Source: a virus. Taken from it: a stretch of 64,000 bases of DNA. Position 1 is the first letter of the stretch; every line of letters begins with the position of its first letter. The stretch spans positions 33,956 through 97,955 of the IMG/VR virus record IMGVR_UViG_3300027659_000017, one strand, 5' to 3'. This document shows positions 3,001-58,687 of the stretch, in pieces. The notes below the pieces were generated by a model. It was given only the letters and a program-made list of their open reading frames with translations. It had not been told where the DNA came from and made no database searches. The position numbers were made by a program, and so were the translations under genes.

Positions 3001-5146
3001 CTATGAATCTAAAGTAATCATCAGAACTCCATTAGTATTTGGGGGAGATACTTATATCAATAGATATACAGAAAAGAATAATATGATGTTCTTCTATGAC
3101 TGGTTGTATGGACAGCCTGATGGATTTGAATACAACTATTATTTAAGAAGCATGATTCCTCAAGCAAGATTTAAAGCAAATAGTATTGCATATGATACTG
3201 GCTACTTGTCTGAGGTATTTAATTTTGGATCACCATCTATACCTGGTACCGGTGCATTCCCTGGAGCTTTTTATAATTTGGATTACTATGTTAATAGCAA
3301 TAGGTTCTATAATTATACAAATGATGTTTCAGAAGGTAACTGGATTGGTGACAGGTACAGAGGTTTGTGGTCTGTAAAGGAAGCATATTTCTATCTTGCT
3401 AATTCTGGTATCAGAGATTTCTTTGTTGAATCTGAAGTTCTAGTTGACTTTAGAAAACAAAGTATATACGAAGGAGGAAAACATTATGATCCGTATAGAT
3501 ATACGGACTATGTTGCAATGTTTAACATGAATCCAGACGTTATGGGAAAATTGAGTGAGTACATTTATGATTACTCACTTAGTGTATCTAAACTTTACAA
3601 CCAGTATTTTTCTGCGGGAAGTACTCAAGGTAAGTACTATGATCCTAATGTAGCCAAGTTATGTTACACATACTATCCAGATAGAATTATCTATTCATTG
3701 CCTCAACAATATGAAGCAATAAAAGATAGCTGGTTCATTTACTTAATCAATAACTACAAGGAATTCAAAGGACAAATCTCTGGAGTAAAGGCAATCAACA
3801 AAAGTGGTATATTCATTACTTTCAAAAATGAAAGTCCTTTGATGTATCAGGGTGTAGATACACTTGAAACAGATTTGAATACTAAGATTACTATTGGTGA
3901 TGGAGGATTATTCTCACAACCACAACAAGCAGTAATTAATGCTGACCGTGCATATGAATATGGTTCTTCTCAAAATAGATTGTCTGTAATATCTACTCCG
4001 GTAGGTATATTCTACATGTCTCAAAATCAAGGAAGGATATTCTCGTATGGTAGTAATCTGGATGAGATTTCTCAGGCCGGATTGAAATGGTGGTTCATCT
4101 TGTACATGCCTTATAGGCTTACACAAGACTTCCCAGACTATCCTTGGAAAGATAATCCAGTAGCAGGTATTGGATGTCAAGCAACCTATGACAGCACAAG
4201 TACCATTTTATACTTTAGTAAGAAAGATTATCACTTAAGGGATGAGTATAAAGGACGTGTGACTTATCAGCCTATGACGGCAAATGGTTCAGGAGATTAC
4301 TTTATACTTGATGGTCATAAAAACTTGAGATATAACTTGGGAGATCCTCTTATATTTGAGGATGCATCATGGACTATTAGTTATGACCCTAAGAATCAGT
4401 ATTGGATTAGTTTCCATGACTGGCATCCGGATCTAGTTATTCCTACTAAAGATATATTTATCAGTTCTAAGAAGAATACTCTGTGGAAACATAACTATAT
4501 CTGTGATGGCTACTGTAACTATTATGGTGTACAGTATGGCTTTGAACTTGAATTCCCAGTTGTATCCGGTCAAACAGTAATGACTGCTAGATCTATAGAA
4601 TACATATTAGAGTGCTATCGTAGAAATGGTAATAGTTGTATTGACCAGCACCATGTGTTGGATTACAACTTTGACCAGGCTGTGATATACAACTCTGAAC
4701 AAGTATCCGGCTACCTTAACTTGAATCTATATCCTAAGAATGATATAAACCAGTCATTGCAATATCCTAAACTAAACGGGAACCTGAGCTCATATGACAT
4801 CCTTTTCTCTAAAGAAGAAAACAAGTATAGGTTTAACCAGTTCTGGGATATAACAAAGAACAGAGATGAATTCCCTATTGGTTCAAACTATCCACCAACG
4901 GGACCAGTAATTCCAGGAACGACAATACTACAAGGTTCGTACTCTTCTGAGAATACTTGGATCACATCTCAAGATGGTTTTACACGTATACTAAATCCTA
5001 ACAATATGGATTACGGGAAACCTGAATTAGAAAGAAAGAAGTTTAGACATTACTTAAATTTCATAAATTTAAGGAGAGATAAGTGTGACAATGTAAACAT
5101 GATTCTTAAAATGTCAAGTAGTAAAAATCAATTTTCTCCTAGATAA
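2..5146 (+). CDS. Large tail/muzzle-like structural protein, 5' end cut by the window
   Basis: The frame is open from the first bases of the window. The first possible initiator inside it is a TTG at 29, but codons upstream (G-Q-R-I-T-S-E-I-G) run on without a stop and fit the downstream sequence, so the true start lies outside. At least 1714 residues are visible. The protein is rich in Tyr, Asn, Asp and Gly, lacks long coiled coils and has few Lys, which suits a beta-rich structural protein. The segment near nt 3030-3110 contains a GGDTYINRYTEKN motif followed by aromatic residues, which I associate with large tail proteins of crAss-like phages. I infer a tail or muzzle-type virion component because it sits immediately before the injected-type giants, but I cannot name it exactly. 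Its TAA stop overlaps the next ATG by one base (TAATG), suggesting translational coupling. Confidence 0.6.
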   Translation, partial: GQRITSEIGLYEEDICKYREIVQDPCLNFDKRYLISGASREKEDCTWQVYWVDAFNPDRFLNVGDPQTWPDASYNWVGGGANSMNYYSNGSDSTFLWPGVNWNKNITVINDCDFVTNTNTLNCDHIRLARLMETPCLNLTLGQSGGTMANGTYFAMIAYCIKGQKVTDWFSQSNFQFIYNVNDLSGSLTLEVNADSENFDEFILAIVEATNQQTVASQMGFYSTKTTRIAIDQINIATVKIPLEQLPITTPVYETSDQMTDVNGYLLRVGPRSKFDFNYQPLANMIRAKWASVEYPADYYMKGGNKTNYLRDEVYTFYIRWVYDTGDKSASYHIPGRAPRSFNVPGIGSRFETEALIDPNALTIDDQVFEVYNTASITPGGLTGTTTDDGGTVIAVGDMGYWQSSERYPDNRPDIWNPSEYCWTGAAAQNGSFDLCGKNIRHHKFPENFIANSTSTDAVHFRPNANIPTNGQDFAIRLMGVYFENITLPKDQQGKDIPGIVGYEILRGSREGNKTIVAKGMVNNFRTFQLRGKLAQGRTGLYANYPYNTIVPIGSSTDPDDHNYLYNDPYIKNEDSDNNVVNQSIPSDIFTFHSPDTMFRTPYLSTTEFKSYGILSGYADLEFQEPNGHPNWKLLANAVVFPMIVGGVAEAIISMLGKRTVNTPKVLSYTEQYRGLAGVGPIIFASGSSTIQSSTAQNTALGLIGTAATAYNTFVNNYYNGPATLDVGLMLALGYSGTLYEGALSNYVNVVNTNANSAGIPKIAKLEGSFEFPKWAYLDPVTRLLGAANQIAYYFAEGADIALKVFYAITPYRQYALQQVSHGFYGNMFPTSANALKRFDIDDSFYIRDNIQEVSKYQDVVSGVYRTYSINNLKRSDAVVVRTKSGPYYNPAYPTGVNIGPNLITSGMRDVSLITLGGVVQYDSSAAFLTNDLPTFDDDKKDIPFSLSIASHYGGLKTRVRNQYGQVGSENEIVITTCEQRLKDYTLAETSWTCPIDSIFYESKVIIRTPLVFGGDTYINRYTEKNNMMFFYDWLYGQPDGFEYNYYLRSMIPQARFKANSIAYDTGYLSEVFNFGSPSIPGTGAFPGAFYNLDYYVNSNRFYNYTNDVSEGNWIGDRYRGLWSVKEAYFYLANSGIRDFFVESEVLVDFRKQSIYEGGKHYDPYRYTDYVAMFNMNPDVMGKLSEYIYDYSLSVSKLYNQYFSAGSTQGKYYDPNVAKLCYTYYPDRIIYSLPQQYEAIKDSWFIYLINNYKEFKGQISGVKAINKSGIFITFKNESPLMYQGVDTLETDLNTKITIGDGGLFSQPQQAVINADRAYEYGSSQNRLSVISTPVGIFYMSQNQGRIFSYGSNLDEISQAGLKWWFILYMPYRLTQDFPDYPWKDNPVAGIGCQATYDSTSTILYFSKKDYHLRDEYKGRVTYQPMTANGSGDYFILDGHKNLRYNLGDPLIFEDASWTISYDPKNQYWISFHDWHPDLVIPTKDIFISSKKNTLWKHNYICDGYCNYYGVQYGFELEFPVVSGQTVMTARSIEYILECYRRNGNSCIDQHHVLDYNFDQAVIYNSEQVSGYLNLNLYPKNDINQSLQYPKLNGNLSSYDILFSKEENKYRFNQFWDITKNRDEFPIGSNYPPTGPVIPGTTILQGSYSSENTWITSQDGFTRILNPNNMDYGKPELERKKFRHYLNFINLRRDKCDNVNMILKMSSSKNQFSPR

Positions 5147-8100
5147 TGTATAATAAAAAAGTTCTTATTGATGCTCTCAAAACTCTGGGTACACCTTCTA
5201 CACCTAAGAAGTATAACTTCAATGATGGAGGTGCAAAAAATACTGGATTAAATGAGGTACCATACAAACAAGTTAGTGTTAAGCCATCAAATGTTGCAGG
5301 TAAAGGTTTGTTTGCAGATGAGCCAATTAAGGCCGGAGAAATAATTGGTCTTTCTCATATCAAATCTTTTTATGAAAGAGGTGGTCAGAATTATATGAAG
5401 AGTCAAGAGACACCGGTTGTAGGTAAGTATTATAATCACTCTGATGATGCATTTAATGCTGGTTCTATTATTGAAGGTAACAAAAGATATTTAAGAGCTC
5501 TCAGAGATATTGAAGCTGGAGAAGAGATACTTGGTAATTACCGTGAAGATGATGATCCTTCATTGGAAAGTCCAGATGATTTTAAGAGAGGTGGTTCTTT
5601 ACCAAGAATGCCTAGAAAGAAAAACTCCAGAGGGTATTCTAGAAGTTTAGAAGCTACAAATAAGTTCTTTACTGAAAATGCATTCTTTGCCAAACCTAAG
5701 TCAAGAAAGAATAAAGTATATGATCCTAATTCAAAATACTATAGAAAAGGAGGAGCTTCTTCTCCAGAAGAATGGGAACAAGAAATTAGAGCTATAGAAA
5801 GTCAAATAGGAAATCCTAAAAACTGGACTCTAGAGGATCGTAATCTTTTACAAGATAAACTTAATGCTTATAAAAACTGGAGAGAAACAACTCCAGAAGG
5901 ACAAGCTGTTAAAGATTCTCATAATGTACCAGGTGAGTATGAGGCTTTTATACCTGAGCATTTAAACGGAGCTCCTTATAATACATCAGGTCCAAGATAC
6001 ATAGAAGAATCTATGGAACAATATCCTGTTGGTAGTGCACCAAAAGTATATGGGAATGAGCCGGAAGATTATCAAAGATTTTTAGATTACAATCAAACAG
6101 CTCCTGAAAACAGAAGAGGTTATGAAGAGTATAGATATGGAGATCCAAATTCATATGATCACTATGGTATGTGGGATGCTCTTGGTAAACCAAAAGATTT
6201 TCAAGAAGCTCTTCAAATGAATCCTGATTGGACACCAGATGAATATGATGGATCATATCATGGATTCAGTGTTAATCCTAACACAGGTGTGTTTCTTAAA
6301 TCTGGTAAACCTGGATTAAAACCTGGAGATACTACCTGGATGGAAATAGCTGGACATTATCTTAGCCCTAGAGCAGATATAGACACACCAGTATTTGATC
6401 CAGAGATAGGTAGATTTAAATATGTTCCTAATGAAGAATATATTGAAACAAAACTTTCACCAGAAGACATAGACAAGTACGTAAAAGGAGGTTATATTGT
6501 TGAAGACATTTCTGTACCTAAACTTACTAAAGCTAGAACTGGTTTAGAAGTTATTAAAACAGCTTTACCTTTTCTTAAAAAAACTGCACCAACTATGTTA
6601 GATTTAAAAAATCTTCCAGTTGGTTTTAATCCATCTGAACTTTCATTTCCATTATTAATTAATGGTTCAAGTGGTTTTATACATACTGCACCTAACAGAA
6701 AACTTAATGATAATCTTTTTCATTTTGCAGCTAGCATGAAAAACCCATTGGAAGCAGGAAGAGCATTCAATATAATCAATCAAGCTTTTCCGTTTGCCAA
6801 TCCCTCAATATTAGAACCAGCTAGTTTAAGTCTTGACTCTTTGAATCTTTTATTAAACATGGGTCAGAAACGTGATTGGGATATGAGGTATGCTGATCAT
6901 CATATTCCATTAAACTTCTTTTCTGAACATAATGATTTATTTGGTGATCTTGGTAGTACTAGAAGTGCACTACATCAAGCAATAGGTTCACAGTCTAAAA
7001 AAACTGGTAATGAAATGGTAGATAGACTGAATGCATATCTAAATGGAAGAGGGATACAACAGAAAGCATATCTACAATCACATGCTCCAGGATTAAGACA
7101 AATCATGATTCCTAACTTTCAACTAACTAGAAAATATGCTAAAGGAGGAACTAAGAATAATCCACCTGTATTAGGATCTTTACTTAAAGCTGTTACAAGA
7201 TCTAACTATAATCCATTAAGTATACCTATTAAGTTAGCTGGTGAAAAAATTGCTAGAATAGGTCCTTTACCTTATAGAACAAAAGATGAAATAATAAAAA
7301 GTTTAACAGGTAAAATGGAACCGGCTTATTTTGGGCAAACTGGTATTTATGGTTCAGATTCATCATTATTTTGGAATGACCCAGATGGTCCATTAATGAA
7401 GGATATATATGGTCTAGGTAAAAGAGATTTAATAGCTAACTATTTTAGAGGTATTGATACAGGATTCAAACCAATTGAATATGACTTTAATAATGATCCT
7501 GGTCTACAAGCTGCCATAAAACAGTATGGTCCTTTAAAAGCTTATGAACTTTTATCTCAACAAGCTCATGGTGAACCATTAGAAGATGGTCGTATTGGTT
7601 ATGCATTACGTGTGCATAATGATGCTATGAAAAAGTATGGTTTTGATCCAGCTTTGTTTATTAAATATAATGATTGGGACTTTCATAAATTTAATCCTCT
7701 TGGATCTCCAGAATTTATAAAACAAAGTTATCATGATTTGTTTGATAGATATGGACAAGAAACTATTCCAATTGAAATTCAATCTGATGCTTCAAAAGGA
7801 AATCCTGAATTTATGATGGCAGGCAATCCAGTAACTCCAGCAGATAATATTGGAGGTCATATGGGTTTCTTACAAAGAACACCTGAGGAAGAATTTAATT
7901 TTACCACAAGAGATTTGTGGGGATTCAGACCAGAAGCATACAATAGCAAATGGAATATGGATACCAAAATGAAACAAGGCCAAACACAATTGATGGATGC
8001 TTTTGGTAAACCCTTTGTTCTTACACAGACTAATCCTATTCAATTTAACACATATAAGAACTTTAAGAAGAAGTTCTTTAAGAAGGGTGGTGCTAAGACT

Positions 8101-11013
8101 AATCCACCACTTCTTGGTAATATGGCTAAGGCTATACAAAGAGGATACAGCCCTAACTTAGTAAAGTCAATATTTGAGTTAAGTCAGAATGGTCAGAACT
8201 TGCAAGCATTAAATTATCTAAAAAATAATTACCTACGAAATATGGGTTCTTTAATGGATCTACCTGGAGCTGTGCAAGGTTCTACATTAGACTTACCACA
8301 ACTTAATGCACAACAGATAGAAGCATTACTGCATCAGAAACCTATGTTAGAAAGTGATTTTCTAACTCAATACAGTGGGTATAATCCTATACAATATGAT
8401 GGAGGTTTACCAATTGTTACTGGGGGATTGACAGGTCATAAAACTTCATTCCAAAACTTTGACAGAAACTTTAGAGGAACAGGTTTTGGTAATCAAACGG
8501 GTGGTGTATATTTTACTACACAACCAACTGTTGCTGCTGAGAATGCTCAAATTAGTAGTATGGGTGGCTATGGATTTAATCCTAATACACCAACATTTAC
8601 ACCTCATATTTCAGAAGCTATATTTAAAAATCCTGATAAATTTTTACAGTATAATGCACCCATAACAGAAGAATTGGCTAAATCTATTGGAATGATTAAT
8701 GGCATAGATCCAAGAAATAGTGACACATTAGGACAGCTTGAAATTGATCTGAGAAAAAGTTTTTCAAAAACTGATGATTATAGTGATTATGATTTTGCTA
8801 TGAAATCAGCTGCTGATGCTTTAAGAGAAAAAGGAATTGCAGGTTATTTTGATCCAAGTGGTCGTATCCAAGAAATAGTGGCTTTTGATGAAGGTGATGT
8901 AAATAAAATAAAACAGTTTGAACTTTACAAAGATCTTGATGATGCTTTGATTATGGGATATCTGAAAGCAATTTCTAAAACTCCATCAACACAAACTGAT
9001 GCAGAGAAAAAATTGGTTGCTGCATTTGAAGAGTATCTGAAAACTGGTAACAAACAACAACTAATAGATAGAAAGAAAGGTGGTGCACTACCACCATCTC
9101 TATTGAAGACTCTCAAAGGAGTTAGTAAATTGACTCCAGGTAATGCTTTAAGATCTACATTGTACTCTGCTGTTAATCCAGCTAGTTATAACATTCTAAA
9201 AAAAATAAAGGCTGCACCTCTTGAGCTATACAATAACATGATGTACAATGATACTCGTCCCTTTAGAGTAGGTATGAGTTTAAAACATGGGGCTCCTGAA
9301 TTAAGAGACAACATGTTAGAACATGTTCGTATGGATTTAAACCAGTGGAATAAAACTTCATTGGCAGATCAAATGGCTGCAATAAAAAATGCATATGGTA
9401 GCAAGCATTTGAACACATTAGAAGATATTGGAAGAAGAAGATTAGATTCCTGGGCTGTAGGTTTGAAAAGACCACAGGAGCATAATACTTTAGAACAAGT
9501 GGGTGACAATACATTTAGAATGGTTGACACAGAATATACTCCTATGTACTTAAATGAACTTTACAATGATCTATTAGCTACAAAAATTGAATCTGATCCT
9601 ATGGCCAACGGCTTTGGTTCTGTTGTTGATGATGGACAATTCAGTCCACTAGAACAACTTAGTAGAGATCAGTTTAGAGTTAAGACACAATATTTTGCTT
9701 CTAATCCAGCAACAGTTCCGTACAGATTATCAGAAAAAGATAAGATAGGATATCCAAATTGGAATAGAACAAGACATGCACAAGTTGATCCTATGGGTCT
9801 TTTATCTAAGATGACTACAGGTACGGTATATGACAATGACCGTTATGGAGTAATGGGTGGTTACAATTGGAAAATTAATGAACATCCAGAAGGAATGGTT
9901 TTTCAAACCAATGACCTATGGGATTTAAATCCGTTTGAAAAAAGAATAGATCCTATGTTAAATACTGATGCTCTTAAAAATAAGTATCTAAACATGCACT
10001 ATTACAAACCATTCCAAAACTTTGAAGCACTTCGTGCAGTGGGTGGTAAACCATTTAACATACAGAACAATTTCTTGGTAGATCCTGATTCATTTAATGT
10101 ACTAAGACAATGGGCAGAAGGTGGACCATTAAAAGGGGGTCCAGAAGAACCTATAACAGATTGTCCAGAAGGCTACACATATGATCCAGATAAATTGGGT
10201 TGTGTACCAATGTCAAGTGATGTACAAGATCCTGCTCAACAACATATTTCCAACTGGTGGATGAATAGAGAAATAAAATGGCCTGAGAATAATAAAGATT
10301 ATCAAAACAATATGGAACAGATTCTTCCTACATCAAATCCAAATTCTCCTGTTATAGAGCAATTAAACAATTGGCCGGGTTATGTTTATACTGATAATTT
10401 ACCAAGACCAGATGCTGGAGGTACATATGACACTTCAAAAAAAGAACCAAGAATATTTGTAAGGAAAAGTTTTAGTCCTGAAATGAGATTGCAAACTGAA
10501 ATACATGAAGGAACTTCACATGCCAATGCTCCAGTAGCAGATCAATTATTTGATATGCATAATAGGATTATGAAACAAAATCTTATTCCAATAAATAAAG
10601 ATTGGTCACCAGCACAAAAAGATTTTTACAATTATGTGACAGCACCAGATGAAGATAACTACCACTCTTATCTTATGAATGCCAGAAAGATATTTAATGT
10701 AGATCCTAAACAAGTTGTAACTGAATCTGATATAAATAAATGGAGACAACAAGCTGAAGAAAGTGGAATGATGGATAGAGAGAGTCCTAACTTTAATGAA
10801 GAGATTTACATTTTATTTAAATTCGCAAAAGATCCAGCATCATTGACCAATATATTTAATTACATGGCAGAAAATAAAAATGAATCTGCTGAAGAAGGTC
10901 CACAGTATACTAAAGATGGTGGTAGTATTGACTACGAATTAGGTGACACAGTAGATAAAGCTACTATGGAAAAATTAAAAGAATTAGGTTATACCTTTGA
11001 ACAAATTAAGTGA
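5146..11013 (+). CDS. Modular giant virion-type protein with SET, ART-like and zincin-like domains
   Basis: A 1955-aa mosaic. Residues about 38-137 form a SET methyltransferase-like domain: GKGLF at 52-56, I-x-x-GE after it, NHS at 97-99 and GEEI..NY at 125-132, the usual SET order. A basic linker and a KPKSRKNKVYDPNSKYY segment follow, with unknown modules separated by K-x-G-G stretches near 149, 204, 666, 980, 1311 and 1660. Residues about 1090-1260 resemble the ADP-ribosyltransferase family of phage polyvalent proteins: H1098, GGVYFTT at about 1119-1125, then EIVAFD near 1243. Residues about 903-968 and 1570-1648 are two copies of a recurring unknown module (DLW..P, then GKPF). A Cys pair (C1673, C1686) precedes a zincin-like HEGTSH at 1787-1792; the extra Ser departs from HExxH, so activity is doubtful. 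The functions are domain inferences; the targets are unknown. Confidence 0.8.
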   Translation: MYNKKVLIDALKTLGTPSTPKKYNFNDGGAKNTGLNEVPYKQVSVKPSNVAGKGLFADEPIKAGEIIGLSHIKSFYERGGQNYMKSQETPVVGKYYNHSDDAFNAGSIIEGNKRYLRALRDIEAGEEILGNYREDDDPSLESPDDFKRGGSLPRMPRKKNSRGYSRSLEATNKFFTENAFFAKPKSRKNKVYDPNSKYYRKGGASSPEEWEQEIRAIESQIGNPKNWTLEDRNLLQDKLNAYKNWRETTPEGQAVKDSHNVPGEYEAFIPEHLNGAPYNTSGPRYIEESMEQYPVGSAPKVYGNEPEDYQRFLDYNQTAPENRRGYEEYRYGDPNSYDHYGMWDALGKPKDFQEALQMNPDWTPDEYDGSYHGFSVNPNTGVFLKSGKPGLKPGDTTWMEIAGHYLSPRADIDTPVFDPEIGRFKYVPNEEYIETKLSPEDIDKYVKGGYIVEDISVPKLTKARTGLEVIKTALPFLKKTAPTMLDLKNLPVGFNPSELSFPLLINGSSGFIHTAPNRKLNDNLFHFAASMKNPLEAGRAFNIINQAFPFANPSILEPASLSLDSLNLLLNMGQKRDWDMRYADHHIPLNFFSEHNDLFGDLGSTRSALHQAIGSQSKKTGNEMVDRLNAYLNGRGIQQKAYLQSHAPGLRQIMIPNFQLTRKYAKGGTKNNPPVLGSLLKAVTRSNYNPLSIPIKLAGEKIARIGPLPYRTKDEIIKSLTGKMEPAYFGQTGIYGSDSSLFWNDPDGPLMKDIYGLGKRDLIANYFRGIDTGFKPIEYDFNNDPGLQAAIKQYGPLKAYELLSQQAHGEPLEDGRIGYALRVHNDAMKKYGFDPALFIKYNDWDFHKFNPLGSPEFIKQSYHDLFDRYGQETIPIEIQSDASKGNPEFMMAGNPVTPADNIGGHMGFLQRTPEEEFNFTTRDLWGFRPEAYNSKWNMDTKMKQGQTQLMDAFGKPFVLTQTNPIQFNTYKNFKKKFFKKGGAKTNPPLLGNMAKAIQRGYSPNLVKSIFELSQNGQNLQALNYLKNNYLRNMGSLMDLPGAVQGSTLDLPQLNAQQIEALLHQKPMLESDFLTQYSGYNPIQYDGGLPIVTGGLTGHKTSFQNFDRNFRGTGFGNQTGGVYFTTQPTVAAENAQISSMGGYGFNPNTPTFTPHISEAIFKNPDKFLQYNAPITEELAKSIGMINGIDPRNSDTLGQLEIDLRKSFSKTDDYSDYDFAMKSAADALREKGIAGYFDPSGRIQEIVAFDEGDVNKIKQFELYKDLDDALIMGYLKAISKTPSTQTDAEKKLVAAFEEYLKTGNKQQLIDRKKGGALPPSLLKTLKGVSKLTPGNALRSTLYSAVNPASYNILKKIKAAPLELYNNMMYNDTRPFRVGMSLKHGAPELRDNMLEHVRMDLNQWNKTSLADQMAAIKNAYGSKHLNTLEDIGRRRLDSWAVGLKRPQEHNTLEQVGDNTFRMVDTEYTPMYLNELYNDLLATKIESDPMANGFGSVVDDGQFSPLEQLSRDQFRVKTQYFASNPATVPYRLSEKDKIGYPNWNRTRHAQVDPMGLLSKMTTGTVYDNDRYGVMGGYNWKINEHPEGMVFQTNDLWDLNPFEKRIDPMLNTDALKNKYLNMHYYKPFQNFEALRAVGGKPFNIQNNFLVDPDSFNVLRQWAEGGPLKGGPEEPITDCPEGYTYDPDKLGCVPMSSDVQDPAQQHISNWWMNREIKWPENNKDYQNNMEQILPTSNPNSPVIEQLNNWPGYVYTDNLPRPDAGGTYDTSKKEPRIFVRKSFSPEMRLQTEIHEGTSHANAPVADQLFDMHNRIMKQNLIPINKDWSPAQKDFYNYVTAPDEDNYHSYLMNARKIFNVDPKQVVTESDINKWRQQAEESGMMDRESPNFNEEIYILFKFAKDPASLTNIFNYMAENKNESAEEGPQYTKDGGSIDYELGDTVDKATMEKLKELGYTFEQIK

Positions 11014-31100: not shown

Positions 31101-34100
31101 GAAAATAACACTTTGTTAAATACATTAGCTGACCAAGGTATCTATGTTGACTTAGATGAATTTTCTAAGTGGATTCAGGACCCTAGAAATTTACCGGAGT
31201 CTTTTATTGATGTAAGAGATAACAAAATAATCAATAAAGGCAGTATCCTATATCAGGAGTATATTGGTACATTCATGAGAGCAGCACAACTTGCAGAAAA
31301 GAAACCTGCAGGTGACCCACTTTCACAAAAGCAAATGCTTGACAAAAGAGTTCAAGAGATGCAGGATGAGAGAGCTAAGTTGATTAGAGGGGAACGTGAT
31401 AAGTACAATGCTAAGTTCAAGGATAAGTATGGTCTAACAGAAGAAGAATACCTGGCACAAGAAGAACAACGAGTTGCTGAAAATGAACTTACTGAAGAAG
31501 ACAAGAAAAAACTAGAAGCTGAAAAGAAACTGATCATTTCTGCTATTGAGAAACTTGCATCAGAAAATTATGTAGATGTACTAGCTGCAGCAGAAATCTT
31601 TGCTGAGAAAATTCTAGCAGAACAAGGAGTTAATGTAGAAGAGTTCTGGGAGAATAAGGTTGCCGAACAACAACAAACTCCTGAGACAAAAAAAGCTATT
31701 TTTGATAAGTCTCAGACATATGATGTATCTGATATAGAAGATCAACAAGAGGCATTTAATACAAGTATAGAGACTGCACTTAAGTCAACTATATATGGTA
31801 AAGCTGCTGCAGATAGACTTCAGGATATTGAGAATGAGTTAAACAAAAAAGCTGCTGAGCCTACAATAGATGTTAAAAATACACCTGAGTACTTGGCATA
31901 CCAAGAAGCAGTTGATGAGATCAATGAGAAGTATGATAACATCATTGCTGATATAAAGGATGACTTCAAGAAAAAGGGTATTGATGAAAATACTCCGGAT
32001 AATTATACAACCAAAACTGCCTTTGATGATTTTGACGCTGAGTTCCAGCAAGAGATTACAGAGTTGTTTGATGAGTATCTAGTTGATGTCTTACAAGAAC
32101 CAATAGACTTGAAGAATACTAATCCGGATAACTATGAGAAGTTCAGAGATAACTGGTTAGAAAGACAAGGTCCACTGATTGAATCTTTCAATGAGAGAGC
32201 TAAAGAAAAGGCATATGCAAGAGCAAAGAAACTTGCTGAACCACCTGTTCTTAAATTCATTCCAGTAAAAATTAACTCTCAAACGACTACTTATACAATA
32301 TCTAGTCTTGTTAAAAGGTTTCAAAAGTTTTTGGCCGATGGTCAATACGAGAACCCTAAAAAGAAGAATGAGTTTATACAGTTAACTCCAGAAGATATTG
32401 CAAACATTAATGAAGATATAGCAGCTTTAAATGGGTATCTTAATGCAAGAGTAACTTCTGCTGAGCCTAGAAATATTGCTGAGGAAACATTTGAAATCAT
32501 TCAGGAGTATGTAATCAATAAGCAAAATGAACTTGTTGATGTGGTTGATGAAGATGGTAATGTGATTGGTAGAACCTTTAGAGATAGAGGACCTAATGAT
32601 CCTGTACCAGATCGTACTACTAAGGTAGCAGAGGAAGTTGAAAATGAGTTGAAACAAAAAGATTCATTTGAGTATAGTCCTATTAAACCTAAAGTTGATG
32701 CTGATGGGAATGTTGGACCTTCTCCTGTTGAGAGTATCTATAACCAATTCTTTAATGACACAGAGATTGTACCAGAAGATCGTATTAGACTCTTCATGGA
32801 AGCATTCAAGAGAGAAGCATTTAGAGGTTGGAAAGAATTTAGATTCCAAGAAAAACTTGATGCCGTTGAGAACTCACTAAAAACTGTGGGTACATATGAG
32901 CATCTAAGAGATACAATTAAGAAGCAAGCCTTCAAAGAATCTGCCGATGGTGGAGACTATGTGGATGGTTTGATTAGAATATTCCTGACTCCTAATGCTG
33001 CTACTGCATCTAAGTTTAGTGAGTTCAGTTATGATTCTACTGTTCAGCTTAAAGGCAAGGACATAAAGATATCAGATATCATGTCTAGAAAGGCATTTGA
33101 TAAACTGTTCGGACCAGTAAGTACTACAAGTCCTGGTGGTATTGTTACTAAGTTTAGACTTGGTGTCATAGATGGTACATATAGAATCCTTTCTGAGAAC
33201 GTAAAACTCTTTGACAAAAGACTAAGAGATGGTAGAGGTGTAACAGGGGAGGTGGATTTACTTCTTTTAAGAGAAGATGGTTCAGTTGCCATTGTAGATA
33301 TCAAGACCAAAACCATGAAGGAAAGAAAAGAGGGTCTGGTTAGTGGATGGAAAGACTTCGGTAATCCAAATGCTAAGTATGAAAGCTCTATCTACTTTAG
33401 GGGTCAACAGTCTATCTATGGATATCAGTTCTTCAATAGTACAGGAATCACACCTGAACTTAAATTGATGCCGTTTGATATGACACTCAGTAAAACTAAG
33501 GTTGGTTACATTGAGGATATTGAGTTGGCTGAGATTGTTGAGGATGGTAAAGACACAATTGACCTTGAATACTTGCCGGAGATTGAGAACTTTGGTATTG
33601 TCAAAATACAACCAGAGATTAAAGCTCCTACAAAAAAGACTTCTACAACTGAAGAAGAAGGTGGTGAAGAGGCAACTAAAGCTGGTATACCTGAATCAGA
33701 TCCTACTAAAAATACATTAGATGATAATGTAGGTAAGCCTGTTATGTATCATGGTCGTCCAGGAAGACTTGTATTGAATACAGATGGTAGTTTTGGAGTT
33801 GAGATAGTTGTTAATGATGACATGTCAACTATGCAACTTACATTAGATGCACTACAAGCAAACTTAATTCTTGAAAAAGAGTACAATAATGAGGAAAACA
33901 TAAAACAACTTGAACAAGATATTCGTAAGATGTCTGAAATGATCAAGTCAGCCGAAGGATTTAAAAGTGTTTTCCCTCTTCAAAAGGATGGTAGAAATGT
34001 GTACAATGGTACTTTGACTGTAAATGAACTGGGTCTGCAATTGATATTTGCAACACAAGGAGTGGGTCAAGTATCAACTGTCAATGGCAAAATCATAAAT

Positions 34101-35643: not shown

Positions 35644-38600
35644 ATGGCATGTAAATTAAATAAATTCCAGGTAGAGGATTTATATACTGTACTTTATGCA
35701 GAAATATCTGATAGAATAAAAAACCCTGAATTACCTCCTATAGATATAAATGATTTAGTAAAAGAAGCATACAATGTTGTGAATACTAATACAGGTGATC
35801 CTGTTAAAGCTATGTACTTTGCACAAGCTATTCCTGATGTATTCCAGTTAGTTGTACAAGATGAGAAAGCTAATGATTACTTGGTAGAAAATGACTTTGA
35901 TTTTAATGGTCTTGCAAAAATGAGAAAAGCTTTTGCTGATCTTATTGAAGTTGGTAAAGCTGTTGAGACTCCAAAAAAAAGTAAACAGGAAATTGATTCT
36001 GAAATCAAGAATGTAAACAGAGCAAAAAAAGATTTTGCTCCACAAATCAATGAGGAAAGTTTCTGGTCTCACAATGAAGATAATGGTGCTAAGGTAGCTT
36101 ATCCTCTTGTGACTTCATTACAGTGGGCATATGCAATGAACCCTGAAAGTCTTACGGAAGAAGAAAGAAATAAATTGGATCCGGAGAAGAAGTTGTTTTT
36201 TGAAGTCATTAAAGCCATAGTAGAGTTATCTAAAAGAAGAGTTGGTGCAGAACCACTTAAATATGGAGACGAAGTTATTGCATTGACTGCCCAGTTAACG
36301 AGAAACATCCCAAGAGAACTTCTAACAAGAGATAGTAGAGAGCACCTAGATAAATATCCAGATGACAATGGTATTGCTGTTGTGATTTCTGATACAAAAG
36401 GAAACCCTTTATACTTCAAACCAGATGGTACTCTTACTGATAATCCAGAAGAAGGTCGTATAGTATACCAATATCTAAGAAAAGTTAATTTAGTAGATGG
36501 AAAACTTTTACTTTCTAATAGAAGTAACCGTCACTATAATCTTGTAGAACCAGAAGCTATTGCCACAAGACAGAAAAATCTTATTGAGCAAGAAAGTAAT
36601 GGTAAGGTCAAGATGACCAATCAAGAATACAAAGAACTTGTTGCATCTATCAGGGAACGTCAGGAGAGAGAAATGAATCAGTTATATCAATTGAGAAAGT
36701 TGATTGAAGAAAATGATTCTAATTTACAAGTAATTCTTCCTATTCTAGGTGGGAGCTTTGGTATCCCTGTTGAAGCAGTTAAGACAATGACTATTGAGCA
36801 AGCTGGACTTACTGAAAAAGAAGTAACAGGTTATACTGCTATTACAACAGGTAAAGATAAAGGTAAGCAGTATCTAATAGTTAGCAGAACAAAAGCCGGT
36901 GGACTTGTAGTAGATCAAGAGATCTTTTTACAAAGATCTGATATGTATAAAGAACTGGCAGAACAAATTGCAACTGTCTTAACTACTAAAGCTAAATTAA
37001 AAGGTAGAGAGTTAACACCAGACGAGAGAAAGACTTACTTTGAAATCTTCATCAATAATACATTGATGAAAGATCCTGCTTCTGGGTATAAGAAAAATCT
37101 TCCGTATAACAGAGATAGAATTAGAACTGTTGTCCGTATAGTAAATAATAAGAAGACTCTATTTGTAGAATTGAATGGTAAGGAAATCCCACAGGATGTA
37201 TTATCTACTGAAGAAGGAAGAGATTTAATCATCAATCATTTGATGAGTGCTAGACCAAAGGATAAAGTAAAGAATGCTTTTTGGCCAGCAAACATTCATT
37301 ATAACAATAGTCTTAATGGAAAAGTATTTACAGAATATGAAATTGTTGGGGATAAGATTGTAGAATCAACAAGAAAGTATTTTGATTTTATCAAACCTCT
37401 AATGAAAGTAGAGTACCCTGATGAGACTAATGCTTATGAGAATGGTATAAACTCATATCTAGCATATGCAATTCCAGAAGGAACTGTTGAATCTAAGGGT
37501 ATTATTCCTATTGGAAGACCAAAACCAGCATCTTCACCTACCTATAGTAGAGTAAAACAAGATAAGGAAACAACAACACCGGCTCCAAAAAGACAATCTA
37601 GACCAGCCCCGGCAACTACTGCCACTGCTAAGACCACAGAAGATAGTCCTTATACTACTTCTATGAAACAACAGATTGAAGCAGCCGGTGGGAAAAGTGA
37701 AAACTATAAAGCTGGAATGAAAGTAAAAGATCTAGCTGAAAAGGTAGAACTTACAGAAGAACAAATAGTTGAATTTAGAAAGAATGCATTGGATTCAGTT
37801 CCTGCTCCTACTCCTGCTGCAAAAAAACCGGCAACTCCAGCTACAGAAGAAGAAGTCAAAGAAACAAATGTTCAAGTCAATCCTGCTACAAGAATAAACC
37901 TGATTGATGACATCATCAACGGTTCATCTAATTCAGCATTCTATAAGAAGAAAGGACTAGATAGATCTAAACTTAGAAGTAAGTACTTAGATAAAGTCTT
38001 TACATCAAAAGCAGATAGACAATCTGCTGAAACTTGGTGGGATAAATCTCCACTTAATATAAAAAATGGTGGTTTTATAACTCTTGAAAGAATTACTGAA
38101 ATAGTAAACTCTGATGCATTTGCAACATGGTCCGGATATGGTATCACTTTGTATGAAGCTGATGGTGGTACTATGGTTGATGTGTATCATGAAGCATGGC
38201 ACGGTTTCTCTCAATTACTTTTGACTAAGGATGAGAAAATTAAACTTTACCAAGAGATACAAGGGCTAGCTAAATATAAAGGAAAAAGTTTCTTTGATAT
38301 AGAGGAAGACCTGGCTGAAGAATTTAGAGCTTATGCTAAGTCTAAAGGTAAAAAAGAAACTAAAGGATTCCTTGGTAAAATCTTTAACAAGATTTACCAG
38401 TTCATCAAAAAGATGTTCGGTAGAACTACTAAGAAACAGGTTGCTACAAATCTTCAAGACATTGATACTGTTAAAGAATTATTTGACAAGTTGTACAGAG
38501 CCTCTGAAAATCCAGAGATTCTGTCTACTCTAAAACCTTCTATGGATAATGTTATGTTTGGGAAACTAAACAGAAGCAAGACTATCAATGATGACTTTAC

Positions 38601-41600: not shown

Positions 41601-44600
41601 TACTCCTTTGTATGATTTACATCAGAAAATGATGAAGGATCAGATAGACTATGTGGTATTTGAATCAGGTTCTAAGATTGGTCATATTGGTACCGGGGAT
41701 GTTGTAATGAATGAAGATGGTACGTTTAACAAGAACTCAACGTTTACTGTTAATAGAATCTATGCTGACTATCTGAAAAACCAAACTGAAATAAATCCAT
41801 CTTACAAAGGTAAATCAATCTTCTCAACTCAGTTGCGTAAGTTGATCCTAGAAGGATTGTATGTTAAAGGTAAAATCACATCTGTAGAGTATCAAGATAT
41901 CACAGACAAGAGAGTTAAACAATATGTTGATCGTGTAGAGGAATACACTAATCTATTGAAGCTAGAACTTCTAGAAGAAATGGGTTATGAAGAAACTTCT
42001 CCCGGGGAATATAAACCTAAAGATAAGTCTAGCATTTCCAAGCTAGTGAATATGATTAGACAGAACCTTGAAAGAGAAGATCTTTTAAGTGATGATCTTA
42101 TTGAATTCATTGATACATATGATGAAAGTGGGGACTTAGTTCACGACCTTTCTTTCCATCCTGAGGCTGCTAAGATAGAGAAGTTATTGCTTTCCATGAT
42201 TAACAAGAGAGTAATCAAACAGAAAGTTGCCGGTGAGCCACTGATTCAAGTATCAGTTGGTATGTATGCTAATCAATTTACTGAACCAGATTTAAGAAAA
42301 GCAACTAAAGCTGAACTTAAAAAGTGGGCATCTAAGACATACTTGTTACCTACCTACAACAGGAAAGTAACTGACTTGGATGAACTCTATAAAGGTGCTA
42401 CTAAAGAACAACTACAATCTACACTAGCAGACAAGAAAAGAATCCTTTCAGAACATGGGGCTTACTGGACTGATAGACATAAAAAAGCTAGCAGAGATGA
42501 GATAAGTTATCTAGAAGATGTAATTGCTGGTAAAAAACCAAAGGTGACCCAAATGTCCAATGGATTTACTGCAGCTGCAAAGGTTATGATTGCAATGCAG
42601 GGGACTTACTATAACCTATTTAATTTAGAATATGAGAATGACGAAACAGTAGGTGTGTATGATGACAATGGTGTCTTAAATATGGATGAATCTTTAGCTA
42701 GATTAAATGAGAAGCTTAAAGATGATACATGGTTAGATAAGAATAATGGAGCTAACAGAAAAGCAATTACACTTGTGGGTGTTAGGATCCCGGTTCAGGG
42801 ACTTAACTCTATGGAATTTGCAGAGGTGTTTGAATTCTTACCACCACAAGCAGGTAACATCATCATACAACCAGCAGAGATTGTAGCCAAGTCAGGGGGT
42901 GACTTTGATATTGATAAGTTGACTATTTTCATGAACACATTAGATGAAGATGGTAAAGTCATTAAGAGAAGTTACAAGGACAATGAAGAGATTAAAAACT
43001 TGAGAGGTACTGCTGATTTTGCCAGTGCCGTGAAGAATCAAAAAGCAGCATTAGAAAATGAACTTATTGATGACATCAAGAATATTCTTGAATTGCCTGA
43101 TAACTATGCATCTTTGGTAATGCCAAATGGTACGTTTATCTTAAAAGAAATTGCAGATAAACTAGCATCAAAGGTTATGGAATATAACCCTAAGAAAAAT
43201 AAGATGACTGATGACACAGGGGAAATCAGTCCTACAAGAGTATTAGAAGCATTGTATAACGTATACAAACATGAGTCTAACATTGTAGGTAAGAAAACCC
43301 TTGGTCTTGGTGCCATTGAAAATACCTTCAATGTTATCCTGAATACTCTAGGGGCATACATGCCGGCAGAGTATACCATCAGTAAGGTTAATAGAGTAAG
43401 TAACATGAGATTGAGACATAACAAGATGACCACAAAAGATGGTACTGAAGTTATTTCTATGTCAGATCTCTATGATGTTGATGGAGTAAACAGGGTGGCC
43501 GATGTTATCTCTCAGATGATGAACGGATGGGTAGACGTTGAAAAGGATGCATGGATCTTCTTTATCCAGGGTAACTATGAGGTTGCTCCAACATTATTAT
43601 ATCTTGTTAAAGCTGGTGTACCTGTAGAAGAAGCAATTCTATTTGTATCTAATCCACTCGTTAGAGAATATGTATATGAGCAACGTCTTGCTAAATCTAC
43701 ATATGCTGATGTCTTAAAGAAAAAACCTAAAACTCCGGGTCTTGCAAAGTATTCTGCAGCATCTGCTGTAATTAAGAAGTTCTTTAACAAAGAAGAGCTA
43801 GCAGCTAATTCTAAGAATGACCAGAGATACTTAAAGGGACAAGAGTTACTAGAAAAGTATTTTGCTGATAGTAAAAATAAGAACTTTACATCTGAAGAGA
43901 TGTGGAAACTTGTTAATGATTCTGCTCCAGATGCCAAGACTGTTAAAGTTCTGGCAGATGCAACGATCACAGAAATGAAAACATTTGAAGGTAGTGAGGC
44001 TGCAAAGAGTGATATAGCAAAAGCTATGTTCTTGCACTATCTTGAACTGGAACAACAGATTTCAGGATACACTGCATTAAAGATGTCGTCTAATCCAGAT
44101 ACAAGTACTAAGTCTACACTATCTGATGTAGAGCAGACAGAAGCAAACATTGGGGAATTATTCTTTGATTCAAGAGTTCCATTGGAGATTGTTGAAGCTA
44201 TGATGGATGATTCTATCTTGAAGTCATTCTTTAATGGGCCCCTTGCACTGGCAGTTAGTAGACCTTTATTTAAATTAAGATACCACAGAATCATTAGTGA
44301 TTACTTGATTTCTAAAAAGAATCGGATTAGAAATGATCTTGAATTAACTTTCCCAGGTAAGAACATTGAAATGTTTAGTAATGTATTCCGTAATGATATT
44401 GTAAGTTTCATGCTTCAGAATGCTCTAAGAAAGTTTACTACTGAAGAAGGATTTATGTCTCTAGGTGTAGAGAACAAAGTTCCTGTATCACTTGCTAAAG
44501 AACTCAAGAGAGGTGCATTTGTTAAGGACGGTGTCATGTACATTGACCAGAAGCAACTTCAAAAAGAGTTTGATCAGAGAGCATGGTCCTATGATACTGA

Positions 44601-46516: not shown

Positions 46517-49500
46517 ATGGTTTGTCAGGTACAATTAAACTCAATAAAATACTTACAAGAACAAGGTGCAACAGATGATGTAAGAAAGATTATTGATGAG
46601 CAACTGTTTAATGAAATAAATGATAAGCTAACAGAACTTGCTGAGAAAAAGTATGGTCTAAGAACTGATGGTTCAAAACTGTTCAGTGTTAATATGTCTG
46701 AACATATTGATGCTGGACGTTCTACTTATTGGAGAGATGCAAAGTACAGAATACTGAGAGCTGAACCTAATACAAAACTCTTTGAGAAACTACAAGAGTT
46801 GTTTAATTCTCGACCTGATCAACCTATGATGATGAGAGATATTGCATCTAAATTAAATGTGATAACTCAAGATGATAAAAGTTATTATAGAGGTCAGATT
46901 GAAGAACCTACTATAGACAAAGATGGTAATCTTGTTTTATATGCAAGAGAAGATGAACTTTATAAAAGGGCAGGTTTAAAAAGTAAAGGTGTTTCAATGA
47001 CAGATAATTTACAATCTGCAATTGAATACGGAAATGGACAGTTAGATGTAGCATTAAATCTAGCTTCACAAAGTTATGACTCAGATACTGAGTCAGATAG
47101 ACTATTAGAAAATGGATATTATCTTATTCAGATACCTAAAAATGTATCTAATGAGATTGTTCAAGAGGCAGGAGAAGTTAAGGTTATTGGTGACAGAGTA
47201 GTTATACCAAAAGGTCAATACAAGATTGAACAGATAAATGATGAAAATGAATCTGCAAAATCTAAAATAGATCCTTCTCTTCAGGAAATCAATGGAGTTC
47301 TATTCATGGATGTCAAGTTAGATGAACTGCAGAATGAGAGATCCAGAGAGGTTGCTGATGTACTTGCTCAAAAACTTTCTCGTAGTATAGGTGTCAAGTT
47401 TGAGAATATCACACCAGAAGAAGCATCTAATATCTTAAAGAATAGAGCTGTTAAATATAATGGAGAACCTGCATTTTACTATGCCGGTACCATATATGTG
47501 GTTGGAGATAACGTCAATGTAAGAACTGTACTACATGAGTTTGCTCACCCACTTCTTCAAGGACTAAGAAAGAATAACAATATCCTATTCCAGAGTCTAT
47601 ACAATCAAGCTCTAGCTACTGAAGAGGGACAGGGTATCTTCTATTATGTAAAGACAATGTACCCTGAACTAGATGAGAATACAGATCTATTCAAGGAAGA
47701 GGTATTAGCATATACTTTACAGTTAAAAGCTCTTAACAAAGTCAACAAAGAAATTGAGACAGAGGGATACCAGAACTTTATAAATAAACTTCTTGCTGCA
47801 CTGAAACAATTGCTCAGAGGAATATTTGGTACTAAGGTAGACGTAGCCAAGTTAGATGTAGATACTACATTAGAGGAGATGGCTGATATGCTCTTGGATG
47901 CAGATTTTGAATTCAGTACTTTGAATGTTACAGAGGAAGACCTTGTGATGTTCTCCCGGAACGTTGTTGAAAGAGCTAAAGAGTTAGCAAGTTTCTCTAA
48001 TGCTGAGTCACAAATCAATGTTGTGAAGGAAATGTTTGAAACCAATAAAAGGATTCTAACAGAGGCTGAAAACTTTAAAGGGGACAAAGCATCTAAAAAA
48101 TTATTGAGAGAGACCTTATTTGAGAAAGGTACTAATAGATATCTCCGAGAAGTTGTAAGTACATTAAGAGACAACCTTAATACAAACACTGAAGGTTTTA
48201 CTGAAGATGAAATGATTCAGAATGCCATAGATGCAGCAAAAGATAACCTGGAGGTGGATCTACAAAGAGCTATTTCATTAGTAAATACATTAGATAATGT
48301 AAACAGCATGACAAAGAACATGCTTCTTGATGTATCTAGACTTAGTCAAACCAATATAAATAATAGAAGTACCATTGCTTTATTGATGTTATACAAACAG
48401 AATTCAAAAGCATGGTTAAAAATGGTGGAGTCTATTGATAAGTCTCTTTCAAGTAACGGTCAGATAGTAGAAAGTAATAATCCATTCTACCAAACCCTAA
48501 ATGAGATTGTACTGAACATCACTCGTATCAATACCAACATTGCAAACATTCTAAAGAATAATAATGTACAGTTCTATGTGGAGATAACAGGATACATGTC
48601 CAAATATGTTCAAGATAGACTGAAGGGTAATCTAGGTATTGCATTGAAGAAGACTTTCCCGGCTGACCAGTTGGAAAAAGAAGTGGATGACTTATATAAC
48701 AAAGTTGTACAACAATCACTTACTGATGCTGATATAGATGCATTGGTACAGAAAGGTGTTCCAGCTGACATCCTGAAAGGATTCTTAAAAGAATACAAAG
48801 ACTTAGTTGTTGATGAAGATAAAATTAGAGCTGCTCTAACAGGAGGGGCTCAAGATATTACCTGGTTTAATAGATGGTTAGAAAGCTATAGTTCAAGTAA
48901 TGATGTTATAGTAGGACCATTAGCAATGTTTATTCAGAATGAACGTACTCAGGTACAGAATCTTGTTTGGGATCAGTCTATGAAGTTCAGAAAAAAGTTA
49001 GAAGAACTTTTACCTAGAGTAGGATTTAGTAAACTGAATTCTATTCAACTGAGACAAAAGGTTGCTTTCAAGGATAAGATTATGTACTTTGATAAGGAGA
49101 CTGGTAAACCAATTGAGAGAGAGGTTTGGTCTTACTTGGATAAATACAAGGACTACAGATATCATTATGATTTATTAGAGTGGAACGTTGAAGAAGCAAA
49201 GAAGTCAGAAGATAAAGAAAAGATTGCTACTGCCATTATGGAGTTTGATGAGTTCAAACGGGACTATATGTGGCAGGAATATGTTCCTGAGTTCTATGAG
49301 AAGGATGACATCTTTAAGAAATCAGAGGTGGGTAGATTAGCATACTACGTCAGAAAACAAAAACTCAAAGCTTATAACAACCTACTTAACAGTATGGAGA
49401 ATGAGATGGAGAGATTTGAAAAGTATTCTACTACACAAGCTGCATTTAGAGAGTTCCAACAGTTGTATTCTTTGACTTATGAAGATGGTACTGCTAAGGT

Positions 49501-57670: not shown

Positions 57671-58687
57671 TTACAATTTTACATTACCAACTGCTAGGTC
57701 GTATGGTAAGTCAAATCTTTTGTTGTTGTAATGCCATAGGGCACACTGTACAACACTTTTGAAATCACTATTCCATTTAACCAATGTTTCAGGAGAAACC
57801 TGAAAAGGGTAAACTAAATTGTATTTGTCAATTACAATAAAAGTTACTTGAACTTTCCAGTCATTCCTGTCTGGTAAATCTTTCAAAAACTTTTCTGAAG
57901 CTAAAATAACATAAATACTGGCTTGTATCCAATACTTATAGTATTCTACTGCATCAGGGAAATCTTGAACAGATTTGCCAGTTGTTTTGAGGTCATTGAT
58001 GAATAACACCTTTGCCTCATTATCAACTACGACATTGTCAAGAACTCCGTGGAAACCAAAAGGTAATTTGTCATGGTCAACCTTAATGTGCAACTCATTG
58101 TAGGCTTCAATGTGTGTGTCTTCCTCAGTTTTATCTAGCTGTAATAAAGCTCTAACATCTTTATTACTTTTTAGTATTTCAACTTGTACTTTGCAGCCAT
58201 TCAAAGTAGGTTCATCTACTACTGTTTTGTCTAGACTTTTCTTAAGGAATTCAAAATACTCTTTGTTCTCTTCGGTGAGAATCTTTTCAAGTCTTTGTTG
58301 ATCTGTTTTAAGAGATTGGTAAAGATTTGCTGTAAGTAGCTGTGTGAGTATATCTTGTGAGTAATCATCCAAAACTAATGAATTATTTCCAATACCACAA
58401 TGGATTCGGAAAATATTATCAATAATTTTTCTTTGACTATCTGTAGGAAGTTTACCTGGCATAGACATAAATTGGTCATCATAGTTGTCAGGTTCAAACA
58501 AAAGACAGTGCAGAACCCGTCCCCCAATGAGGTGCGGGTCTGTACCATCCTCCCTTTGTTGCAGCACATAATGATTGTAAAATAATCCAGGTGAGTATAG
58601 TAGTTTATTTAAACCACTGTAACTAAAATAAAACTTTTTTTGATAAAACTTCTCTAGCTCATCAGAACCATTCAAAACCATCTCCAT
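57671..58687 (-). CDS. RecE/Cas4-like PD-(D/E)XK nuclease
   Basis: A 338-aa protein. The motifs fall in the order of the RecE/lambda-exonuclease/Cas4 group: FSYSGLNKLLYSPGLFY (a SxSxL-type start), GRVLHCLLFEP with H60, GVLDNVV with D217, VLFINDLKTTG with D232 and K234, and QASIY with Q255 and Y259. The spacing and length fit a full-length exonuclease, which resects double-stranded DNA ends for recombination or replication. Two possible starts exist (residues 1 and 3). The start overlaps the end of the upstream gene by 26 nt. It lacks the four-Cys cluster of Cas4, so no iron-sulfur cluster is expected. Confidence 0.85.
   Translation of the reverse strand: MEMVLNGSDELEKFYQKKFYFSYSGLNKLLYSPGLFYNHYVLQQREDGTDPHLIGGRVLHCLLFEPDNYDDQFMSMPGKLPTDSQRKIIDNIFRIHCGIGNNSLVLDDYSQDILTQLLTANLYQSLKTDQQRLEKILTEENKEYFEFLKKSLDKTVVDEPTLNGCKVQVEILKSNKDVRALLQLDKTEEDTHIEAYNELHIKVDHDKLPFGFHGVLDNVVVDNEAKVLFINDLKTTGKSVQDFPDAVEYYKYWIQASIYVILASEKFLKDLPDRNDWKVQVTFIVIDKYNLVYPFQVSPETLVKWNSDFKSVVQCALWHYNNKRFDLPYDLAVGNVKL

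Follow-up and report, generated by a model that had tools for sequence, protein, structure and literature searches.

Locus and gene arrangement

The window analysed here is a stretch of 64,000 nucleotides (positions 33,956 to 97,955) from a 97,955-bp virus record, IMGVR_UViG_3300027659_000017, which is assigned to the Crassvirales by a muzzle protein scoring over the cut-off of PF25731 and by matches to the portal, TerL and major head proteins. Three giant genes follow one another on the plus strand: P0001 (28134-35642), P0002 (35644-46515) and P0003 (46517-52858). An earlier note, made from the letters alone, had described a 2502-aa giant next to an RNA polymerase, and both genes are indeed there. 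P0001 encodes 2502 residues, and the 3623-aa P0002 carries an RNA polymerase signature of the DxDxD type (DFDID, 42901-42915, plus strand) together with a zincin-like HEAWH motif (38188-38202, plus strand). Towards its C-terminal end (residues 3272-3381), P0002 also matches DUF7831 (PF25176, E=2e-11). The 2113-aa P0003 has a zincin-like HEFAH motif of its own (47534-47548) and a LysM match at residues 1788-1826 (PF01476, E=3e-7). Elsewhere in the window, the N-terminal part of a structural-block protein of 1955 aa (5146-11013) matches the SET domain (PF00856, E=7e-7).

The genome has three PD-(D/E)XK genes: P0001, a stand-alone gene in the replication block (57671-58687, minus strand) and one beside the terminase, outside the window. 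The second of these is the separate dedicated nuclease that the earlier note had placed in the right arm; it is RecE/exonuclease VIII-like (phrog_412, E=5e-20; PF12705, E=3.8e-7). Both stand-alone genes retain the motif I His. An origin of the P0001 domain from the RecE-like gene was considered and set aside, as profile comparison does not favour it (2.8%). A closer match is the terminase-side gene (82%, E=1e-5), with the similarity confined to motifs II-IV.

A divergent RecB-type nuclease domain in P0001

P0001 contains a RecB/AddA-type PD-(D/E)XK nuclease domain at about residues 1590-1830 (32901-33623, plus strand), a longer extent than the 33040-33480 first proposed, which falls within the domain and misses motif I. 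The residues first singled out (E1706, D1708, D1722, K1724, Q1758 and Y1762) are all exactly where they were said to be, and five of them are invariant; the exception, E1706, is replaced by Thr in several relatives and is not part of the core. As first framed, the motif is weak by itself, since the loose pattern D..[DE]xK..QxxxY arises in 84% of shuffled versions of P0001 (1672/2000), while the complete four-motif pattern arises in none of 2000.

Relatives, both close and distant, were gathered by scanning a virus contig collection, and 19 crAss-like copies, with identity down to 16%, were aligned. Ten columns are invariant, nine of them falling in the four RecB motifs and the tenth being a turn glycine, G1716. 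All four motifs lie on the plus strand: the motif I helix G1607-xxx-D1611-xxx-R1615 (32952-32978), motif II G1705-E-V-D1708 (33246-33257, with the G and D invariant), motif III D1722-I-K1724 (33297-33305) and motif IV Q1758-xxx-Y1762 (33405-33419). The domain is under purifying selection, with dN about 0.11-0.26 and dS >1.

The predicted structure, on which the earlier note had made its reading depend, has the PD-(D/E)XK fold. In the AlphaFold model (pLDDT 82, pTM 0.78) the motif I helix is followed by a strand (model residues 176-183), a second strand (189-198) that bears motif III, and a helix (222-241) that bears Q1758 and Y1762, so that D1708, D1722 and K1724 lie on adjacent strands. The best structural match is AddA (Z 9.4), followed by RecB, RecE, AdnA, Dna2, MGME1, Cas4/ACE1 and lambda exonuclease, with few unrelated entries; a Z near 9 is moderate support. 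The copy in crAss001, modelled with lower confidence (pLDDT 65), finds comparable matches (AddA, Z 10.1). In a viral structure library the P0001 model matches crAss-like proteins, several of them labelled PD-(D/E)XK (best E 1e-9); Foldseek against the PDB gave no match below E 0.001. Among sequence profiles, PF12705 (PDDEXK_1) is matched by all 19 copies (best 5.4e-6) and phrog_298 (exonuclease) by 14 of them (best 1.8e-14). The isolated P0001 segment matches PF12705 below threshold (E=0.011, covering motifs II-III); the window copy scores 16.2 bits against a gathering cut-off of 22 that its relative L021 passes with 26.9. Because ten columns are invariant, the fold is predicted and the structural matches are nearly all of RecB type, we conclude that the nuclease domain in P0001 is real.

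It is a member of the PD-(D/E)XK superfamily with a RecB-like fold, divergent at motif I, where the His of RecB and Cas4 is absent and D1611 is found in all 19 copies. The Asp characterises the clade of the window and the Steigviridae, and the same position is His in the Suoliviridae relatives cr55_1 and ProJPt-Bp1, deeper relatives whose His supports D1611 being a replacement of the motif I His. The earlier label "RecB/Cas4-like" stands for its first half: membership of Cas4 was rejected, since residues 1590-1830 contain no cysteines and hence no Fe-S ligands. P0001 gave no Walker A match and no Pfam helicase family in a search for an SF1 helicase motor. The earlier note also knew of no characterised example in crAss-like giants. 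The domain is of a kind already predicted there, here with an Asp in motif I: a PDDEXK domain has been predicted, and only predicted, for large proteins that some crAss-like phages encode in their transcription block (Yutin et al. 2021, PMC7886860).

Distribution among crAss-like phages

A whole-protein tblastn of P0001 found no match in phage records, and the domain alone found only weak ones (E no better than 0.01), through which gp47 of crAss001 was identified. By profile search, the nuclease was found in crAss001, cr128_1, bajarodcaudo virus 1, DAC17, cr108_1, cr55_1, cr1_1 and the TAG-recoded cr124_1, with weak matches in cr130_1 and ProJPt-Bp1. The same search gave no match in phi14:2 or in six Suoliviridae genomes (cr115_1, cr125_1, cr10_1, cr53_1, cr118_1 and cr50_1), which retain the polymerase block where examined. 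The match in FpV4 is a separate small gene, and no relative in a cellular genome was confirmed. Taking absence to mean no profile match, the nuclease is apparently common yet dispensable.

The gene context varies. Nuclease, zincin and DxDxD signature share one ORF in L024 (4069 aa) and in the open ORFs of L023 and L025, and crAss001 has nuclease and zincin together in gp47 with the polymerase elsewhere. The order nuclease-zincin-DxDxD is kept over several different gene splits, with L027 placing the polymerase giant first. Among L002-L012, the nearest relatives of the domain (L002-L004) are not those of the whole of P0001 (L005/L007/L009), a discrepancy that suggests mosaic exchange.

Probable carriage in the virion

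The earlier note's suggestion that the protein is carried in the virion has gained ground from two sides. Profile comparison (E=6e-14) shows the P0001 domain to be a homologue of the one in crAss001 gp47, a virion cargo protein detected by mass spectrometry (PMC10172136) and expressed late (PMC8375218). Outside the nuclease no homology between the two proteins is detectable, hhalign aligning that domain only, and we therefore rejected homology of the whole proteins. In addition, P0001 has a single cysteine in 2502 residues (mean in other ORFs of these genomes, 0.88%), as in the N4-like virion polymerases, whose lack of cysteine has been interpreted as necessary for transit of the tail (PMC3715699, PMC3915230). 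Since its domain is homologous to that of a late-expressed virion cargo protein, injection of P0001 is well supported, and by this analogy P0001 very probably enters the host with the RNA polymerase.

The published accounts consulted describe gp47 as an RNA polymerase-associated protein and leave the nuclease unmentioned. As a separate observation, the DFDVD signature of crAss001 lies in gp50 (L014, 22078-29325); gp49 has been named as the predicted catalytic subunit (PMC8375218).

Cysteines at the facing ends of the giants

The most surprising result is the placement of cysteines. Across the 8238 residues of P0001-P0003 there are just four cysteines, each at an end that faces another giant: C2502, the last residue of P0001 (codon 35637-35639, plus strand), faces C3 of P0002 (35650-35652), and C3622 of P0002 (46507-46509) faces C3 of P0003 (46523-46525). 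Relatives of these giants have the same pattern. In crAss001, gp47 has C2339 of 2341 residues, gp50 has C5 and C2404 of 2412 plus one internal cysteine, and gp49 has C5; phi14:2, whose middle giant is the polymerase of PDB 6VR4, has C1797 facing C3 and C2179 facing C3. End cysteines are also present in DAC17, cr108_1, cr55_1, ProJPt-Bp1 and the TAG-recoded cr115_1 and cr125_1. The rule holds at all 15 junctions tabulated (two Crassvirales families and the clade of the window), which share ancestry and so do not count as independent cases: a cysteine lies within 11 residues of the C-terminus in 15/15 upstream giants and at position 3-5 in 14/14 downstream giants, while the outer ends have none (0/7 and 0/7). 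Among control proteins, 13/160 have a cysteine in the last 12 residues and 4/160 in residues 2-6. Other, internal cysteines are frequent in the giants of Suoliviridae.

What the cysteines follow is position. In L027, where the polymerase giant precedes the nuclease giant, they match the place in the series and not the domain. They are kept where gp47 is on the opposite strand from gp49 and gp50. The fused giants L023 and L025 are free of cysteine over open frames of 4165 and 5044 residues, and in L024 two internal cysteines lie away from the nuclease-zincin joint and the C-terminal one faces a protein starting MIC. The split polymerase of L013/L090, which has no end cysteines, was examined as a counterexample and dismissed: the split lies within sequence that is continuous in P0002 and is most likely a frameshift.

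Because the end cysteines track position, persist across strands and are lost as a pair on fusion, we argue for a link between the chains, and a head-to-tail disulfide would be the simplest reading of them. Disulfides do occur between tail and portal-vertex proteins in crAss001 virions (PMC10172136); against the proposal, disulfide formation in anaerobes is not obvious. More generally, the Crassvirales may have divided a nuclease-protease-polymerase cargo among giants almost devoid of cysteine, which are rejoined in the virion by C-terminal/N-terminal disulfides, threaded into the host in fixed order as a single chain and freed by reduction in the cytoplasm, a generalisation that we think could fall either way. 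A somewhat less probable, tentative alternative is that the terminal cysteines form no disulfide link and serve in metal binding, as a packaging signal or in docking of the ends, the bodies of the giants being free of cysteine solely for passage through the tail. The N4-like virion polymerases, cysteine-free and without end cysteines (PMC3715699, PMC3915230), speak for such a function; the pairing at facing ends, the bare outer ends and the loss of the pair on fusion speak against it. In the literature searched (an open-access library only) we found no earlier mention of the end-cysteine pattern.

Proposed role of the nuclease

What might a nuclease be doing in such a protein? We propose, with a probability of roughly 0.6 for the whole, that P0001 is packaged alongside the genome, leaves through the tail together with the virion RNA polymerase as infection begins, refolds in the cytoplasm and then cuts DNA in the newly infected cell. 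Residues 1590-1830 would be an active, metal-dependent DNA nuclease of RecB/AddA type that lacks a helicase and in which D1611 stands in for the motif I His and acts with D1708, D1722 and K1724, supported by Q1758 and Y1762. Disulfides would join C2502 of P0001 to C3 of P0002 and C3622 of P0002 to C3 of P0003, making a single threadable chain, which the reducing conditions of the cytoplasm would take apart. The likelier target would be DNA resident in the cell, the host's own or other, or else defences based on DNA, given that phages lacking a detectable copy are viable. Against the proposal, a packaged nuclease must be kept inactive beside the phage's own DNA.

That the domain is an active nuclease is in itself highly likely. 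Loss of catalysis for want of the motif I His, with the fold surviving solely as a DNA-binding module or scaffold, would fit the Asp of the window clade and Steigviridae and the score of the window copy below the Pfam cut-off; we think it very improbable, given that all other catalytic residues are invariant over a very large divergence, that an Asp can ligand metal and that relatives keep His at the same position. A greater, if still low, probability attaches to processing of the incoming phage genome, by trimming or resecting its linear ends for circularisation or by providing single strands for the virion polymerase. RecE, lambda exonuclease and the AddA relatives, which are among the structural matches, are end-acting enzymes, and some phages carry nuclease and polymerase as one fusion. 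However, the patchy detection of the domain, with the polymerase block kept in negative phages where examined, argues against an indispensable genome-processing step, and the two stand-alone PD-(D/E)XK genes could do this work. As targets, resident DNA or defences seem to us likelier than genome ends. It is also improbable that the domain acts in the producing cell, in assembly or packaging (for example, end trimming during headful packaging), its presence in the virion being incidental: gp47 is expressed late and the closest stand-alone relative adjoins the terminase, but that stand-alone gene is itself the better packaging candidate and the domain is found fused to the polymerase, not to the terminase.

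The conserved nuclease domain in gp47 provides a concrete, testable predicted activity for a cargo protein of human gut viruses that rank among the most abundant. If the end cysteines bond, they would account for the ordered joint ejection of giants wider than the tail bore and for their later separation. Both readings are open to test in the cultured crAss001 system.

Comparison with known systems

One close counterpart is crAss001 gp47, which has the homologous domain with the same set of motifs and differs in that a HEAxH motif follows its nuclease, a motif that in the window belongs to the front part of the polymerase giant P0002. The nuclease domains of AddA, RecB and RecE are alike in fold and motif order; P0001 differs in having no helicase signature and in the motif I Asp for His. 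With Cas4 and ACE1 only the fold is in common, as the P0001 domain, having no cysteines, has no Cas4-type Fe-S cluster. The domains predicted by Yutin et al. (PMC7886860) are of the same superfamily and lie in the same kind of giant gene beside a DxDxD polymerase, with a PDDEXK_a in the structural block and a PDDEXK_b in the replication block, as in this genome; the portions of that report used here make no mention of a replaced motif I residue, of homology between the domain and a protein proven in virions or of cysteines at the ends. The N4-like virion RNA polymerases and polyvalent proteins (PMC3715699, PMC5512222) are likewise cysteine-free injected giants joined to zincin-like peptidases, but each is a single polypeptide without paired end cysteines, and their polymerase is of a different family.
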